Part shown: one piece after another, positions 45,300 to 54,369 of the stretch | Layout of the letters: the number at the start of each line of letters is the position of its first letter | Numbering within the stretch: position 1 is the first letter of the stretch | Notes under the pieces: model-generated | Databases searched by the model: none | What the model was told of the DNA's origin: nothing | What the model saw: the letters and a program-made list of their open reading frames with translations, nothing else | Program-made: the position numbers and the translations under genes | Assembly (NCBI RefSeq): GCF_000355805.1 | Contig: NZ_CM001837.1 | Span: 718,409-782,408, forward strand | Direction: 5' to 3' | Source of the DNA: Dokdonia sp. PRO95 | GTDB lineage: Bacteria > Bacteroidota > Bacteroidia > Flavobacteriales > Flavobacteriaceae | Length of the DNA: 64,000 nucleotides

Positions 45300-47990
45300 C
45301 TACTCTGCTATATTTGGGGTGAGCCATTTTTCCGCTTTCGCGAAAGCAATATTCTTGCGGCTCGCATAGTCCTTTACTTGATCTTCTTTTATTTTACCTA
45401 AACCAAAATACCTCGCCTCAGGATGCCCGAAATAATATCCGCTCACACTTGCCGCCGGCCACATTGCCAAACTTTCGGTAAGGGTAACACCTATGGACTC
45501 TTCCACGCCAAGCAATTTCCAGATAGTCTCTTTCTCCAAATGATCTGGACAAGCGGGATAACCTGGCGCTGGACGTATTCCTTGGTATTTTTCTTTAATT
45601 AAATCTGTATTTGCTAGTGCTTCTCTAGTGGCATATCCCCAGTGTTTTGTGCGCACTTCCTTATGTAGATATTCGGCAAAGGCTTCTGCGAGTCTATCTG
45701 CAAGTGCTTTAATCATTATAGCGCTGTAATCATCTAGCGCATCTTCAAACTCTTTTGCCTTTCTGGCTGTTCCGAATCCTGCTGTAACACAAAAAGCACC
45801 CATATAATCTTGCAATCCACTATCTAGCGGAGCAATGAAATCTGATAGCGCGATATTGGGCTTGCCCGCTGCCTTTTTTGATTGTTGCCTGAGCGTTCTA
45901 AAAACCACCGAACCCTCTACTCGCTCCTGATTTACTACAATATCATCTTGGTTATTTGCATTTGCTTTGAAAAGACCAAAAGTCGCTTTGGCAGTGAGCC
46001 ATTTTTCGGTAATGATTTTTTTGAGCATTTGTTGTGCATCGTCAAATAGTTCGCTGGCTTGTTTTCCTACCACCTCATCTGTCAAAATCTCTGGGTACTT
46101 ACCGTGCAAATCCCAACTCCTAAAAAATGGACTCCAATCTATATAAGGCACCAGTTCGTTGAGATCTAAATGTTCAATCACCTGTACACCTAGTTCTTTT
46201 GGAGCGACAATATCCTCGGCTTTGAAATCTATTTTTAATTTATTTGCTCTCGCCTGCTCAATCGTCACATATTCCTTAATGCGTTGTCTTGAGTTAAAAT
46301 TTTCGCGAAAGCGGGCGTATTCCTCTTTGAGTTTATTTTTAAAAAGAACACTTGTATCTTTCTGTAATAAATCACCCACAATAGTTGCCGCCCTGCTGGC
46401 ATCGTTTACGTGCACAACGGCACTCTCATAATGCGTGTCAATTTTCACAGCGGTGTGTGCCTTGCTTGTGGTCGCACCACCTATCAAAACTGGGATTTTG
46501 ATATCTTGTCTTGCTAGCTCTTTGGCTAGATAAACCATCTCATCGAGGCTAGGTGTAATTAAACCACTTAGACCTATGATGTCTGCATTTTCGGCAAGAG
46601 CGGTGGCTATGATTTTTTCTGGTGGCACCATCACACCTAGGTCTATAATTTCATAATTATTGCACGCTAGCACAACGCTCACGATGTTTTTACCTATGTC
46701 GTGCACATCTCCTTTTACGGTTGCCATTACAATTTTACCCGCACTCTGACTCGCGGCTTGGGTACCGTTTCTCAACTTCTCTTCTTCTATGTAGGGCAAT
46801 AAACAAGCAACGGCTTTTTTCATCACTCTGGCAGATTTTACTACTTGAGGTAAAAACATCTTACCACTGCCAAAAAGGTCTCCCACTACATTCATACCCG
46901 TCATTAAGTGGCCTTCTATCACTTTGATAGGAGCATCTACAGCTTGTCTGGCCTCTTCTACATCTTGTAGAATATAGGCATCTATTCCTTTTACTAGTGC
47001 TCTGGTGATACGGCTCTGCACATCCTCTGTTCGCCAGGCTTCGGTTTCTTTTTGTGTAGATTCTTTTTGACCTACGGTCTCTGCAAATGTGAGTAGGCGC
47101 TCTGTTGCATCATCTCTTCTATTGAGTATTACATCTTCTACACGCTCTAGTAAATCTGCTGGAATATCATCATACACCTCCAGCAAGGCGGGATTAACGA
47201 TACCCATATTCATCCCTGAATCAATAGCGTGATACAAAAACACCGAGTGCATCGCCTCGCGCACGGCATTATTTCCTCTAAAACTAAAAGACACATTGCT
47301 TACACCACCACTCACACTACAATGAGGTAAATTATTTTTTACCCATCGCGTGCTCTCTATAAAGTCTAATGCATTGCGTTTATGCTCATCCATACCCGTC
47401 GCCACAGGAAAAATATTGAGATCAAAAATGATATCTTCTGCCGGGAAGTTTACCTCATTAACTAAAATCTCGTAGCTGCGCTTTGCAATCTCAATGCGAC
47501 GCTCATAAGTATCTGCCTGACCTACTTCGTCAAATGCCATTACAATCACAGCGGCACCATAACGTTTGATTGCCTTTGCTTGTTGTATAAAAATGGCTGC
47601 TCCTTCTTTTAAAGAAATAGAGTTTACAACACATTTACCTTGTACTACTTGCAAGCCAGCCTCTATAATCTCCCATTTTGAACTATCTATCATAATGGGC
47701 ACTCTCGCGATATCTGGCTCTGCAATCACAAGATTTAAAAAGGTAACCATCGCCTCCTTGCCATCTATGAGACCGTCATCCATATTAATATCGATGATCT
47801 GCGCACCGTTTTCTACTTGATCTCTAGCGACAGAAAGTGCTTCTTCAAATTGTCGTTCTTTAATGAGTCTCAAGAACTTTCTTGACCCCGCGACATTAGT
47901 ACGTTCTCCTACATTTATAAAATTACTTTCTGGCGTAATCACTAAAGGCTCAAGACCAGAAAGTCGCATATATCTAGGAGTCACATTCAT
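45300..47990 (-). CDS. metH: Methionine synthase, folate/cobalamin part
   Basis: An 896-residue protein with the folate-binding, cobalamin and reactivation domains of B12-dependent methionine synthase. Pterin domain from [17 protein letters not shown]; cobalamin-binding [14 protein letters not shown] in the central part, with the axial histidine; C-terminal AdoMet domain with [12 protein letters not shown]. The homocysteine domain is encoded separately just upstream and overlaps by one base. Carries two perfect palindrome cores, at 45336-45345 (read AFAKAEKW) and 46301-46310 (read RFRENFN). Confidence 0.95.
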
Positions 47991-48988
47991 TATAGCTTAC
48001 ATTTTCTAGGGGTTACATTGGCTACTAGTTGAGCAATGGCTTTAATGTGTGCAGGTGTGGTGCCACAGCAGCCACCCACAATATTTACAAGGTTTTTATC
48101 TATGTATTTTTTAATCTGCGTTGCCATTTGCTCTGGTGTTTCATCATACTCCCCAAAGGCATTAGGCAATCCCGCATTAGGATGTGCAGAAACACCCACC
48201 TCTGTTTTACTTGCTATGGCTTCTAGATGTGGCTGCAGCTGACTAGCACCTAGCGCACAGTTAAAACCAACAGACAACAGCGGAATATGAGATACTGAAA
48301 TTAAAAATGCCTCTGCCGTTTGCCCAGAAAGCGTTCTACCAGAGGCGTCTGTTATGGTGCCAGAAATCATTACTGGCGTGTCTACCCCTCGCTCCTCTTT
48401 TACCTGATCTATCGCAAAGAGCGCAGCCTTTGCATTGAGCGTGTCAAACACAGTTTCTACCAGCAGCAAATCCACACCACCGTCTAGCAAGGCTTCTACT
48501 TGCTGCTTATAAGCAACTCTAAGTTCTTCAAAACTCACCGCACGATAACCCGGGTCATTTACATCTGGCGACATACTCGCTGTCTTGTTTGTAGGGCCTA
48601 TGCTCCCTGCTACAAATCGTGGTTTGTGAGGTTCTTTTGTGGTTATGGATTGAGCGACATTTTTGGCAATTTTCGCGGAAGCGTAATTCAAATCATACAC
48701 ATACTCCTCCATCTCATAATCTGCCATTGCGATGGTGGTACTCGAGAAGGTATTAGTCTCCACAATATCTGCTCCCGCTTCAAAATACTTGCGGTGCACC
48801 TCTGCAATTGCGGCAGGCTGCGTGAGTGACAGTAAATCATTATTACCTTTTACAGACCGATGAAAATCTTTAAAGCGCTCTCCTCTAAAATCTTCTTCAC
48901 TAAAGTTATATGCCTGTAGCATCGTTCCCATCGCACCATCTAGCACGAGGATACGCTCCTTTAGTGCGTTTGTAATTGCCGTGCTCAT
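47990..48988 (-). CDS. metH: Methionine synthase, homocysteine-binding part
   Basis: A 332-residue homocysteine S-methyltransferase domain: [14 protein letters not shown] at the start, [16 protein letters not shown], and zinc cysteines in [10 protein letters not shown] and [12 protein letters not shown]. Corresponds to the first domain of full-length MetH, here as its own gene. One-base overlap with the larger part suggests balanced translation of the two halves. An in-gene variant of the palindrome lies at 48671-48686. Confidence 0.93.
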
Positions 48989-48990
48989 AA

Positions 48991-50079
48991 CTAATTAAGG
49001 CTTGTCGTGATTTTTAAAATATCAGTCAGCACGCCTCTTGCCGTCACTGCCTTTCCTGCGCCAGCTCCTTGTATCACAAGTGGGTGGTCGCCGTAGGAGT
49101 CTGTATAAATTTCAAAAACGGCATCTGCACCTTGCGTTTGCCCCAGTGCTGTGTGCTTAGACTCTTGCACTAGTTTTACTTCAAGCTGTTGTGTTTTTAA
49201 ATCTAACTCACCTACGTGTCTCAACACTTCATTTGCTCCTAGTTGGGATTTACTTTTCTCAAAAATGGCATCAAGGGTTTTTACGCTTTCGCGAAACTGA
49301 GGTAAGGTAGTGGTACCATTTAAAGCTTTAGGCACTAGTGATTGTACTTTTACATCGTCAAACTCTTTTGTGAGTCCTACCTCTCTCCCTAAAATCAAGA
49401 GCTTGCGTGCCACGTCTTTACCAGATAGATCTTCTCTAGCATCTGGCTCAGTGAGTCCCAACGCATCTGCCTCAAGTAATATGTCTGAAAAACTCTTATC
49501 CTCTGCCGAAAAGGTGTTAAACAAATAACTAAGAGAGCCAGAAAATACACCTCGTACCTTATGTATTTCTTCACCACTATCGTATAAACTTTTTATGGTC
49601 TCAATGATAGGCAGTCCTGCTCCTACGTTTGTTTCGTATAAGAACTTCTTGTTGTGCTGTTTTAAGGATTTACGCAGGGTTTTATAAAAATCATACGAGC
49701 GTGTGTTTGCAATTTTATTTGCCGTTACAATATGAAATCCATTTTCGACGAGAGCTACATAGTTTTCTACAAACTGCTGACTCGCAGTTACATCTACCGC
49801 GATAAACGAGCTTTTATCATCGTGATTTGACTCTTGTTGTTGTTTTAATTTTTTCGCGTAAGCGTAAATATCATCAAGTGTGTATGGATGTGCCTGGTTC
49901 TCAAAATCTGCACTCCAGCTGCCTGTCGTCTCATTTTGAAATAATGCCAGTGTAGAGTTTGCAATACAAAAAATGTTAAGTTGCTTACTAGAAGACTTTT
50001 TATTAAAATCTGTAATCTGTGTGATGAGCGTGCTCCCCACATTACCTATACCAAAAATGGCGATGTTTATTTGTGACAT
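48991..50079 (-). CDS. hom: Homoserine dehydrogenase
   Basis: A 362-residue NAD(P)-dependent enzyme making homoserine from aspartate semialdehyde. Rossmann start [42 protein letters not shown]; catalytic region [15 protein letters not shown] and [19 protein letters not shown]. There is no fused aspartokinase, unlike ThrA. A palindrome core lies at 49287-49296 (read QFRESVKT) and a variant at 49852-49867. The gene overlaps the end of the metX-like gene by 13 bases. Confidence 0.92.
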
Positions 50080-51038
50080 AATTGTGTTGAAAAAATGGGT
50101 TTTACAAAGCTTGATAACTGCTCATATTCTATTAAAAAGGCATCGTGACCGTGTATGGATTTAATCTCATCATAGGTAGATGAGACACCCATCTCTTGTA
50201 ATTGCAAGTGGGTCTCATACATCTCATCTGCTAGAAAAAGTCCATCTGTATCTATAGCTACTTGATGCACGGTACCGGTAAAGTCACACAGGGACTCTTT
50301 AAAATCTTTGCTTCCTTGTGTAATATCTGCACTAAGCAATAACTGATTCATAAGCCTATATGCCGATAGCGAAAATCGTTCTGAGAGCTTTATGCCGTGG
50401 TGATTAAGCCAGCTTTGTGTATTATATAATTGCTCATCGCGCTTACTGCGATTAAACTTCTCTTTAAAAGAAGCTGGTGTGCGATAAAAGGTCATTGCGT
50501 GCATACGCGCATCTGCTACGGGCTGGCTAGAATGGGTAAGAAAGCTGTCTTGTATGTGACATTGTGCTATCACCCAGTCTGTCGCTTTCCAGTCTGTCGC
50601 AATGGGTATTAAATGTTTTATAAGCTGCGGCTGTTGGCTTGCGAGTTCCCAGGCTATCTGCCCTCCTAAGGAACCACCTACAACGGCAAAAAGTGATGTT
50701 ATGTTAAGATGCTGTAGCACCTCCCCGTGTATGCGTGCGATGTCATAATTTGTAAACTCTTTATAAGCTGTAATGCGCTGCGTGCTTGCGTGGCCATTAC
50801 CTGGTATATCTATAGATAGTATGGTGTAGCAACCTGTATCTATAGCTTTTTCTTTACCTATCAAATCACTCCACCAGCCCTTATTACCGGTTATGGTAGA
50901 GTTACCCGTGAGCGCGTGATTAACCAGTACTACAGGTGCCGTACCTAGTACCTGACCCGCCAGCTGGTATGACACTTCGAGATCACAATGATAACCAGAA
51001 CGTGTGGTAAAAGATGATATGGATACTATGTTAAGCAT
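50067..51038 (-). CDS. metX: Homoserine O-acetyltransferase-like
   Basis: A 323-residue alpha/beta hydrolase-fold enzyme expected to acetylate homoserine. Signature segments: NHALTGNSTITGNKGWWSDL, IDTGCYTILSIDIPGNG, the nucleophile serine in VVGGSLGGQIAWELA, and SIHGHDAFLIEYEQL with the catalytic His. It is shorter than typical MetX. Context (followed by hom and metH, preceded by metY) strongly supports the role. A terminator-like hairpin separates it from metY. Confidence 0.85.
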   Translation of the reverse strand: MLNIVSISSFTTRSGYHCDLEVSYQLAGQVLGTAPVVLVNHALTGNSTITGNKGWWSDLIGKEKAIDTGCYTILSIDIPGNGHASTQRITAYKEFTNYDIARIHGEVLQHLNITSLFAVVGGSLGGQIAWELASQQPQLIKHLIPIATDWKATDWVIAQCHIQDSFLTHSSQPVADARMHAMTFYRTPASFKEKFNRSKRDEQLYNTQSWLNHHGIKLSERFSLSAYRLMNQLLLSADITQGSKDFKESLCDFTGTVHQVAIDTDGLFLADEMYETHLQLQEMGVSSTYDEIKSIHGHDAFLIEYEQLSSFVKPIFSTQLCHK

Positions 51039-51132: not shown

Positions 51133-52425
51133 TTACACTAAAACAGTTTTATCTACGCGCGCAAAAGCCGCTACGAGATCTTCTTTAAGATCTTCTATAT
51201 TCTCAAGACCTACAGAAAGACGCACGAGATCTTTAGTCACTCCAGTTGCCTCTTGCTCTTGGTCTGAGAGTTGCTGGTGTGTGGTACTCGCTGGGTGTAT
51301 AATGAGTGATTTACTATCACCTATATTTGCGAGTAGTGAGAAAAGCTTAGTCTCGTTTGCAATAGTTTTTGCACTTTCAAAACCACCTTTTATACCAAAG
51401 GTGACAATCCCACTCTGTCCCTTAGGCAAGTATTGCTTTGCAAGATCATTGTACTTACTTGACTCAAGGCCTGGGTAGTTTACCCACGCCACCTCATCAC
51501 GAGTTTCTAGCCACTGCGCAAGTGCAAGTGCATTTTGCGAGTGCTTTTGCAATCTAATTTCTAGTGTTTCTAGCCCTTGTAATATTTGGAATGCATTAAA
51601 TGGGCTCAACGCCGCACCGTGATCTCTCAATCCTTCTATGCGCACCTTTGCAATAAACGCTGCCTCTGCTAGTGCATCGTGGTACACTAAGCCGTGGTAA
51701 CCTGCAGAAGGCTCTGTAAACTCAGGAAATTTACCATTACTCCAATCAAATTTTCCTGCATCTATGATTACTCCACCTAGTGCGGTACCATTACCGTTTA
51801 TGTATTTTGTAAGAGAGTGAATCACGATATCTGCCCCGTGCTCAATTGGGTTAAGAAGCGCTGGAGTTGCCACTGTGTTATCTACAATGAAAGGCACTTT
51901 GTGCGCTTTCGCGAAAGCGGAAATACCTTTTAAATCTAATACATCCAGCTTAGGATTACCTAGTGACTCCACAAAGAAGGCACGGGTATTTTCTTGTGCT
52001 GCGTTTTTAAAATTTTCTGGATCTGAAGGATCTACAAAAGTGGTTGTAATCCCAAAACGAGGAAGCGTCACACTTAGTAAATTATACGTTCCTCCATAGA
52101 GACTACTTGAGGCTACTACGTGGTCCCCTTGCTTTAACAGTGTAAGTAGCGTGGTGTTAATTGCCGCAGTACCAGATGCGGTTACTACAGCTGCCAGCCC
52201 TCCTTCTATCTCTGTGAGGCGCTTCTCTAGCACATCATTTGTAGGATTATTAAGACGTGTGTAGATAAAACCTGGCTCAGAGAGGTTAAAAAGGTTTGCT
52301 GCGTGGTCTGCATCATTAAAAACGTAGGCAGTGCTCTGGTAAATAGGCACGGCTCTTGTTCCTCCGTTTGCTGCATAATCGTGTCCTGCGTGCAACGCTT
52401 TGGTTGCTAATTTTTGTGTACTCAT
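51133..52425 (-). CDS. metY: O-acetylhomoserine sulfhydrylase
   Basis: A 430-residue PLP enzyme of the Cys/Met metabolism family, expected to convert O-acetylhomoserine and sulfide to homocysteine. Motifs: VPIYQSTAYVFNDADHA, FIYTRLNNPTNDVLEKRL, ASSSLYGGTYNLL, and VIHSLTKYINGNGTALGG with the PLP lysine. The ATG at 52425 matches the family start; an upstream in-frame start lies in the leader. The palindrome at 51904-51919 is read as SAFAKAHK. A SAM-I riboswitch precedes it. Confidence 0.93.
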   Translation of the reverse strand: MSTQKLATKALHAGHDYAANGGTRAVPIYQSTAYVFNDADHAANLFNLSEPGFIYTRLNNPTNDVLEKRLTEIEGGLAAVVTASGTAAINTTLLTLLKQGDHVVASSSLYGGTYNLLSVTLPRFGITTTFVDPSDPENFKNAAQENTRAFFVESLGNPKLDVLDLKGISAFAKAHKVPFIVDNTVATPALLNPIEHGADIVIHSLTKYINGNGTALGGVIIDAGKFDWSNGKFPEFTEPSAGYHGLVYHDALAEAAFIAKVRIEGLRDHGAALSPFNAFQILQGLETLEIRLQKHSQNALALAQWLETRDEVAWVNYPGLESSKYNDLAKQYLPKGQSGIVTFGIKGGFESAKTIANETKLFSLLANIGDSKSLIIHPASTTHQQLSDQEQEATGVTKDLVRLSVGLENIEDLKEDLVAAFARVDKTVLV

Positions 52426-52583
52426 TTTTCTTTTTTTTGAGTTTAATAGATTCCCTCTCACCCTGTGTGAAAGGATTAAAAACAAAAGCCAAACGTCTCT
52501 TAAACCTTTTTACAGGCTCTCAAGATTTTTAAGAAAAATATTATAAGAAAAAACATAAGCACGTACCTGAGCGGTACTGCTCG

Positions 52584-52705
52584 ATGTTATCTATCCTCAA
52601 GATTCGGTAATGAGCGACTCTTGGGTAGAATGTAGCACCTTCTTTCTAAGTGAAAGGGTTGCTAAGGCTTCATAGGGTCATTCCCTCAGCCTTTCTTGAT
52701 AACAT
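52584..52705 (-). promoter_or_regulatory. SAM-I (S-box) riboswitch
   Basis: Read on the minus strand, the closing stem is ATGTTATC (52705-52698) with GATAACAT (52591-52584). Inside are the conserved S-box parts in order: AAGAAAGGCTGAGGGAATGA, CCTATGAAGCC, TTAGCAACCC, then AAGGTGCTACATTC and CTTGAGGATAGATAA. This is a near-complete match to the SAM-I aptamer, 160 bases before metY. The downstream leader has a short GTACC-GCTCA-GGTAC hairpin with T-run and a CCTTTCAC/GTGAGAGG stem nearer metY as possible switching parts, so the expression platform is unclear. Confidence 0.93.
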
Positions 52706-52966
52706 TTCAATAAGTTGTTGAACTTTGTGAGCACAAATATTGTAAAAACAATTTTAGAAAAACAAACTTTTTAGAATAATTTTCTAAATAAAGTTATGTT
52801 AAATTCATTTAGACAAAAATTAAACTGTATTTAATCTATATAAAAAACTATTTTTCTAATACCTCCATAAAAGCAGAAAATAGGTCTTAGAAAATTTTCA
52901 CAAAAAAATAACATTACCCTACCAGATTGGTAGGGTAATAGATTATTTATATCATTAAAGTTTCTT
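52706..52966. other. Divergent gap between SAM-I and SAM-II-like leaders
   Basis: About 260 A/T-rich bases between the metY and metK leaders. CTACCAGATTGGTAGGG at 52919-52935 holds a small inverted repeat (CTACCA/TGGTAG). No gene or further folded element recognised. Confidence 0.45.
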
Positions 52967-52974
52967 TACTTTTG
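52967..52974 (+). promoter_or_regulatory. Putative metK -7 element
   Basis: TACTTTTG, a TAnnTTTG match. Transcription would begin close to 52981, a few bases before the aptamer, as expected for a leader RNA that starts with its aptamer. Confidence 0.55.
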
Positions 52975-52987
52975 TCCCCATAATAAC

Positions 52988-53038
52988 GAGGACAGATTTG
53001 ACTGCTTGCAACCTCAAAAAAAAATGGCTAAAATCAAA
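52988..53038 (+). promoter_or_regulatory. SAM-II-like riboswitch aptamer before metK
   Basis: Stem P1 is GAGG (52988-52991) with CCTC (53012-53015). The loop reads AGATTTGACTGCTTGCAA, and the 3' arm ATGGCTAAAATCAAA, matching the SAM-II order GATTTaAC...TTGCAA...stem...GCTAAAA. A pseudoknot helix can form between TTTGA (52997-53001) and TCAAA (53034-53038). SAM-V shares this core, so the subclass is open. It lies 78 bases before metK, a sensible target for SAM feedback. Confidence 0.72.
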
Positions 53039-53101
53039 CACAAGACTTTAACATTTCTTGTGTTATGTTTCTACCCAGCACTCGTCAAATCTACTTCTTG
53101 A
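53024..53101 (+). CDS. Possible 25-codon leader frame in metK leader
   Basis: ATG at 53024 opens MAKIKHKTLTFLVLCFYPAL and ends VKSTS at a TGA at 53099-53101, 14 bases before metK. The first codons coincide with the conserved GCTAAAA of the aptamer, so the start may be coincidence. If translated, ribosomes would disrupt the aptamer's pseudoknot and the following hairpin. No Met-rich stretch, so not a standard attenuator peptide. Confidence 0.25.
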   Translation: MAKIKHKTLTFLVLCFYPALVKSTS

Positions 53102-53115: not shown

Positions 53116-54369
53116 ATGGCTTATTTATTTACCTCAGAATCTGTTTCTGAAGGACACCCTGATAAAATTGCAGATCAGATTTCTGACGCACTTATCGATA
53201 ACTTTCTTGCTTTTGACACGCAGTCTAAAGTTGCTTGCGAGACCCTAGTTACAACTGGGCAGGTAGTTCTTGCAGGAGAAGTAAAGTCTAATGCATACCT
53301 AGATGTTCAAAAAATTGCCCGTGAGACTATTAATAAAATAGGATACACAAAGGGGGAGTATATGTTTGACGGTAACTCTTGTGGTGTACTGTCTGCCATA
53401 CACGAGCAGTCTGACGATATAAATCGTGGTGTAGACCGCGAGAGCAAAGAAGAGCAAGGTGCAGGAGACCAAGGTATGATGTTTGGCTATGCGACTAAGG
53501 AAACTGAAAACTATATGCCACTAGCTCTCGAGCTATCACATAGACTACTCATTGAACTAGGTAAACTACGCCGTGAGGATGATGAGATTACCTACCTACG
53601 TCCAGATGCCAAAGCACAAGTTACTATTGAGTATAGTGATGATAATGTGCCGCAACGCATTGAAGCTATTGTGGTGTCTACACAACACGACGACTTTGAT
53701 GAAGATGAGGCAATGCTAGGCCGCATACGTGGTGACATACAAGACATTCTTATACCGCGCGTAGTAGGAATGCTACCAGAAAATATCGCTGCGCTCTTTA
53801 ATGATGATATTAAGTATCACATCAACCCAACGGGCAAGTTTGTGATAGGTGGACCTCACGGAGACACAGGTCTTACAGGTCGTAAAATTATAGTAGATAC
53901 GTACGGTGGTAAAGGAGCTCACGGTGGTGGTGCTTTTTCTGGAAAAGACCCATCAAAGGTAGACCGCTCTGCAGCTTATGCAACGCGTCACATTGCAAAA
54001 AACTTAGTAGCTGCCGGAGTAGCAGATGAGATACTTGTACAAGTATCTTATGCAATAGGTGTTGTTGAGCCTATGGGAATCTTTGTAGATACCTACGGCT
54101 CATCAAATGTGTCGCTATCTGATGGTGAGATTGCTCAAAAGGTGACCGAACTTTTTGATATGAGACCAGCTGCAATAGAAAGCAGATTAAAACTGCGCTC
54201 TCCTATATACAGCGAGACTGCAGCATATGGACATATGGGACGTACAAACGAAGTGGTGACAAAAACTTTTGAAAGCTTTGACGGTAAGAAAAAGGAAGTT
54301 GAAGTAGAACTCTTTACTTGGGAAAAACTAGATTATGTAGAGGAAGTAAAAAAAGCTTTTAACCTATAA
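53116..54369 (+). CDS. metK: S-adenosylmethionine synthetase
   Basis: A 417-residue enzyme that makes SAM from methionine and ATP. Motifs: [20 protein letters not shown] at the start, [13 protein letters not shown], the loop [20 protein letters not shown], and [19 protein letters not shown]. Full length. Divergent from metY and preceded by the SAM-II-like leader, hence likely repressed by its own product. Strong terminator downstream. Confidence 0.97.

Follow-up and report, generated by a model that had tools for sequence, protein, structure and literature searches.

In Dokdonia sp. PRO95, metY and metK are separated by a gap of 690 bases that was found to carry two S-adenosylmethionine (SAM) riboswitch aptamers of different class: SAM-I, on the minus strand, faces metY, and SAM-II, on the plus strand, faces metK. 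The interpretation favored here, to which a probability of about 0.7 is assigned, is that divergent expression from this gap is controlled by two leaders, each responding to SAM independently of the other, with SAM-I acting on the methionine genes and SAM-II switching folds on metK. Computation shows the two aptamers and the genes, the recurrence of these in relatives, the complementarity behind the anti-aptamer stem and the SAM-I hairpin, and from these we infer SAM binding, operon structure, the direction of control and whether it acts on transcription or translation.

The open reading frames of the window, the whole 64,000-nucleotide stretch of DNA that was analyzed, place the metY start at position 52425 (minus strand) and the metK start at 53116 (plus strand), bearing out the gap length given in a preliminary description of this DNA. 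The metY product (51133–52425, minus strand) was assigned as O-acetylhomoserine sulfhydrylase by TIGR01326 (635.6 bits; cut-off 495.1) and the metK product (53116–54369, plus strand) as S-adenosylmethionine synthetase by TIGR01034 (501.5 bits; cut-off 309.4). metY is the first of a minus-strand run of genes behind SAM-I, followed by a MetX-like acyltransferase (50067–51038, best model MetX), then by a homoserine dehydrogenase-like protein (48991–50079, best model homoserine dehydrogenase or a bifunctional enzyme's domain) and by MetH in two reading frames (47990–48988 and 45300–47990, best model MetH); the best-model scores of these four frames mostly lay below the full-length cut-offs. Given these genes, SAM-I faces methionine synthesis and SAM-II faces the SAM synthetase. 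MetH is split within 45300–48988, the two frames covering residues 10–337 and 340–1230 of the full-length model. The PRO95 genome, a single contig of 3.3 Mb, contained one SAM-I and one SAM-II.

A search of the whole window with Rfam 15 at curated thresholds returned exactly two matches, RF00162 and RF01726. The SAM-I (S-box) aptamer (52705–52584, minus strand), upstream of metY and the following genes on the same strand, matched the full RF00162 model (1–108) with 83.5 bits (E 3e-18; cut-off 44.4), as had been proposed from the sequence beforehand. The plus-strand element (52982–53041) matched the full model (1–60) of RF01726, the Bacteroidetes long-loop form of SAM-II, with 61.6 bits (E 2.1e-9; cut-off 44). 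When 801 bases were searched permissively, the alpha-proteobacterial SAM-II model RF00521 gave only 11.7 bits (cut-off 36), and SAM-V did not appear among the matches listed, for which E values up to 10 were allowed. The earlier label ‘SAM-II-like’ was thus right in the sense of the Bacteroidetes long-loop form, and assignment of the metK leader to SAM-V instead was rejected on the same search.

Directly 3′ of the SAM-I aptamer lies a terminator-like hairpin (GAGC.GUACC / GGUAC.GCUU, then AUGUUUUUUC; 52547–52582, minus strand), which was absent from the output of a plain terminator scan of the window. Across ten aligned Dokdonia leaders the hairpin directly after P1 was kept despite sequence change, and AUGUUUUUUC followed it in eight, with variants in loci L212 and L215. 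Double-sided changes were present in 4 of the 13 consensus pairs, with a slightly unfavorable covariation energy term (+0.13). The 3′ strand of P1, AACAU, can alternatively pair with AUGUU, and this suggests that the leader is an OFF switch working through termination. Most likely, the SAM-bound P1 would leave the short hairpin and a free U-tract as a terminator, while without SAM the P1 3′ strand would lengthen the hairpin into the U-tract, such that high SAM would shut off the metY, metX-like, hom-like and metH run. Upstream of SAM-I a conserved element, GAACTTTGTGAGCACAAATATTG, was noticed by eye at 52720–52742 and at the same place in L088, L089, L103 and L110, representing several genera; it is probably the SAM-I promoter (ATATTTG, minus strand).

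Between the two promoters the window also contains a perfect 12-bp palindrome, ATTACCCTACCA-GAT-TGGTAGGGTAAT (52913–52939), followed by TTATTTTTTT on the minus strand, for which a terminator or an operator are candidate roles. As a part of the switch it was rejected, since inspection of the Dokdonia gaps by eye showed it to be imperfect in L148, L151 and L153 and did not reveal it in L154, L149, L145, L157 or L152.

Just ahead of the SAM-II aptamer, the metK leader has TACTTTTG (52967–52974, plus strand), a match to TAnnTTTG, which we take to be the Bacteroidetes-type −7 box consensus. In 78 of 81 loci TAnnTTTG ended 15–30 nt upstream of the loop motif, compared with 120 of 4050 shuffles, and from this position the metK RNA would begin at about the aptamer. 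Beyond the aptamer is a hairpin, H (AACACAAGA / UCUUGUGUU; 53037–53064, plus strand), which carries a compensatory change to AACAUAAGA / UCUUAUGUU in L148, and then a segment termed here the D-box (GUCAAAUCU), which ends 23 nt before the metK AUG. The D-box and its extension (53084–53100, plus strand) form the 3′ arm of a predicted anti-aptamer stem, the 5′ arm of which (CGAGGA-c-AGAUUUGAC; 52987–53002, plus strand) overlaps P1 and the loop of SAM-II. The window leader folded at −27.2 kcal/mol (shuffles −19.8 ± 3.2; z −2.33; 5 of 200 as good), and the stem in this predicted fold, CGAGGA-c-AGAUUUGAC / GUCAAAUCU-ac-UUCUUG, is incompatible with the aptamer. The complementarity of the D-box to the SAM-II binding loop, which is new here, therefore points to a SAM-free fold that excludes the aptamer. 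Positioned at the extreme 5′ end of the metK mRNA, SAM-II would then pick between two mutually exclusive folds, the pseudoknot with SAM and, without it, the long anti-aptamer stem in which the AGAUUUGAC loop is paired with the D-box just upstream of metK. A SAM-dependent change would be expected at GAUUUGAC/CUAAA, together with release of the D-box.

Segments complementary to the ligand loop were recognized by eye between aptamer and metK in other leaders as well, as GUCAAAUC in many lineages and UUGCAAUC in others. Exact complements of at least 8 nt between aptamer and platform occurred in 40 of 80 leaders, against 3 for direct repeats, 4 for reversed sequence and 7 for plain complement among the same number; no exact complement of 8 nt was found in the other half. 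For 30 of the 80 leaders the best aptamer–platform helix placed among the top 5 when ranked with 100 shuffles, and for 12 it fell in the lower half. Among the 33 leaders with a D-box, the pair neighboring it was A-U in 12 and G-C in 12, and the flank formed 67 contiguous pairs with its own aptamer versus 39.6 ± 6.8 with swapped ones (0 of 5000 permutations). Covariation of the flank on the metK tree (45 leaves) was weak, with two double changes where 0.9 were expected (p 0.21), and so the argument leans on the complementarity and conservation tests. Across 15 Dokdonia leaders, CGTCAAATC of the D-box was invariant in 9 of 9 columns, compared with 6 of the 73 other window-occupied platform columns (P 1.7e-8).

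The state of the pseudoknot itself has to be judged separately, because the Rfam structure line for SAM-II contains no pseudoknot and the RF01726 score is thus silent on P2. Outside Dokdonia, at least 75 of 79 relatives have a CAG, able to pair with the loop CUG, no more than 2 nt after CUAAA, and among Dokdonia leaders the count is 0 of 16; the script caught a wrong site in L085, L126, L140 and L157, the last of which is without CAG by eye. The 15 distinct Dokdonia leaders all read AUGGCUAAA or AUGCCUAAA, their relatives mostly AUGCUAAA, and the genus has one additional base ahead of CUAAA. When the pairing was worked through by hand, P2a was still possible with one bulge and distal P2 was not. 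The inserted base and the missing CAG together indicate a weakened pseudoknot, in which SAM binding is not assured. It could be, then, that SAM-I alone is active and that the Dokdonia SAM-II is an altered relic, a poor SAM binder whose leader sits constitutively in the anti-aptamer stem, and the stability of the SAM-free fold given above would fit such a state. This is considered improbable, however, as GAGGA, AGAUUUGAC, GCUUGCAACCUC, CUAAA and the D-box are conserved genus-wide while the remainder of the leader diverges, and as the CAG-less CUGCUUGC loop was also seen by eye in Bacteroidales loci, often with metK right behind GCUAAAAAG.

Under the favored interpretation, that of a SAM-II fold switch on metK, SAM would lower metK expression. 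The terminator scan of the window gave no terminator-like site between the SAM-II aptamer and metK, so that SAM most likely acts on metK translation, and translation is our best guess for the Dokdonia read-out. Imposing the aptamer on the window leader reduced the predicted accessibility of the start from 0.74 to 0.65, an effect too small for the SAM-bound fold to be retained as directly occluding the metK start there. Over 95 leaders the mean changed from 0.57 to 0.54, with lower values in 65 (by more than 0.1 in 18 of these) and values higher by more than 0.1 in 8, which amounts to a weak predicted drop. No start-blocking hairpin common to the Dokdonia metK leaders was seen by eye. Twelve of 80 leaders, compared with 3 of 160 controls, pair the post-aptamer strand with the metK start region over at least 8 nt; 11 of the twelve come from small genomes (1.3–2.7 Mb). 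This platform looks more clearly translational, and it fits translational repression in those lineages. Two further kinds of metK leader were distinguished by eye in loci L158–L206, which are mostly Bacteroidales: the first often has the metK start directly behind GCUAAAAAG, after the pseudoknot, and the second has a U-tract hairpin, in at least several cases with CAGTC complementary to the aptamer GACTG. Platforms so unlike one another indicate that the read-out varies by lineage.

Termination by Rho is known elsewhere as a riboswitch output. One alternative to translational control is that SAM-II is read by Rho-dependent termination or by mRNA decay, the SAM-bound state exposing the C-rich, G-poor D-box strand. 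The lack of a terminator-like site in the window metK platform would suit this mechanism, as would the platform strand, which looked pyrimidine-rich in many leaders. We regard it as unlikely, though the least so of the alternatives weighed for metK; direct evidence for it was not found, and the start-proximal hairpin of the small-genome clade points to translation.

Another alternative is a leader peptide. The AUG within the pseudoknot (53024) opens a 25-codon reading frame (53024–53101) whose end lies 14 nt upstream of metK; by blocking this frame, SAM could uncouple metK translation. Such an AUG was present in 82 of 95 leaders, and 27 of the 82 frames ended near the metK AUG, at most 30 nt upstream or 10 nt downstream of it, a count that was made without a control. 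There is also a precedent in S. meliloti metA, where SAM-II governs translation that starts at an AUG 74 nt further downstream (PMC9373788). Nevertheless, the frames ranged from 3 to 54 codons, seven had no stop within 200 codons, 13 of the 95 leaders had no such AUG, and the frames of L145, L155 and L156, from the same genus, stopped after 3–6 codons; moreover, the AUG overlaps structural bases. A leader peptide starting inside the pseudoknot was therefore rejected for want of a conserved length, and is thought very improbable.

The two classes were next counted in relatives. Among 249 Flavobacteriaceae genomes SAM-II was present in 235 (228 over the cut-off), SAM-I in 199 and both in 193, the last figure from tables compared by eye. 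For 80 genomes of the family, one per genus (G001–G080) and all with the listed coordinates available, the counts were 77, 63 and 61, respectively. The nearest SAM-I/SAM-II pair was divergent within 400 nt in 10 of these genera, a number that rises to 11 at a limit of 1 kb and to 16 at 3.5 kb, such that the divergent pair of the metY–metK gap recurs in relatives. In 11 further genera SAM-I was found on the same strand 1.4–3.0 kb downstream of SAM-II, with metK between the two and, after SAM-I, metY or another methionine gene (as in L072, L075, L128 and L131–L134). The 18 Dokdonia genomes had SAM-II in 16, SAM-I in 15 and both in 15; sorted by hand, 11 of the 15 pairs were divergent within 1 kb, two were within 3 kb and two were split between contigs. 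When 60 genomes from across the class were sampled, SAM-II was present in 7, SAM-I in 43 and both in 6 (the window genome and 5 of the 59 others), and co-occurrence is therefore much rarer outside the Flavobacteriaceae. Sequence and recurrence together support the view, put forward in the preliminary description, that two receptors of different class serve two arms of the pathway. To that description the analysis adds the run of methionine genes behind SAM-I, the wide spread of the pairing in the family and the expression platforms.

Of the 80 relatives for which the locus was fetched, 79 had SAM-II upstream of metK; counted from where the loop motif begins, the metK start lay 87–153 nt downstream. 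L079, from a small genome without a SAM-I match, is the exception: its SAM-II, the second in that genome, is followed by metY, metX-like and hom-like genes and stands in place of SAM-I. Behind the SAM-I pattern, the nearest recognized gene was metY, metX, MetH or a metY relative (32–35% identity) in every fetched locus where the pattern matched except L152, where the contig ends; six window proteins were the only queries in this recognition, and a gap of ~500 nt in L085 may hide another gene. In L145 and L149, from Dokdonia relatives, the first recognized gene behind SAM-I was metX-like and not metY. Several small genomes without a SAM-I match carried SAM-II, metK, metY and metX as a single run (L063, L065, L067, L070, L071, L074, L104 and L106, among others); some of these genomes are incomplete, with L063, L065 and L104 being at least 95% complete. 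Such runs suggest that SAM-I and SAM-II can substitute for one another.

The difference in affinity raised as a possibility in the preliminary description would rest on exemplars from other organisms, the SAM-I of yitJ having a Kd of ~4 nM and the SAM-II of metA one of ~10 μM (PMC1273637). A tentative extension, held to be possible and rather less probable than not, is a two-threshold SAM circuit in the Flavobacteriaceae, in which a tight SAM-I would end transcription of the methionine genes at low SAM, and a loose SAM-II would throttle metK translation through the loop-competing D-box only at high SAM. The classes would be evolutionarily interchangeable, small-genome lineages having lost SAM-I and moved metY–metX behind the SAM-II–metK leader. 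Why bacteria evolved several unrelated SAM receptors is an open question, and two classes in one cell, at two steps of one pathway and sometimes in one gap, make it testable by a leader swap.

Both sensors are of known kinds. Long-loop SAM-II in Bacteroidetes, and the presence of both aptamer classes within the phylum, have been published (PMC2864571 and PMC2258182), and the 2007 survey (PMC2258182) found no species with both SAM-I and SAM-II. A literature search, with most subscription journals and supplements outside its coverage, yielded no paper describing the divergent pair or both classes in one flavobacterium or species. The earlier suggestion that the pairing is undescribed stands in this respect for the divergent pair; it does not extend to pairing as such, since tandems of SAM-II with SAM-I/IV in one transcript were already on record, as seven and two examples (PMC9481103). 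The paired use is thus a recurrent arrangement for which no description was found.

Compared with known systems, the SAM-I leader resembles RF00162 in its full-model match, its downstream methionine genes and its U-tract hairpin after P1, and differs by a 25-nt insert near the 3′ side where the consensus stretch is 11 nt, with nothing else notable. The metK leader shares with the RF01726 long-loop SAM-II (PMC2864571) P1, the GAUUUGACUG loop, UUGCAACCUC, the A-rich strand, CUAAA and the downstream metK; unlike it, the Dokdonia element has CUGC for CUGA and an extra base ahead of CUAAA, lacks the CAG that would supply the distal P2 pairs, and carries the D-box in its platform. The S. meliloti metA SAM-II (PMC9373788) likewise affects translation, with the start codon lying tens of bases further on, but there the riboswitch Shine-Dalgarno is needed and a terminator lies between, whereas in the window the binding loop is predicted to pair with the D-box and no terminator was seen. 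Finally, the tandem SAM-II/SAM-V and SAM-II plus SAM-I/IV arrangements, as described in PMC9481103, also place SAM receptors of two classes near each other; theirs lie in one transcript, whereas those described here stand back to back, on two transcripts and two arms of the pathway.
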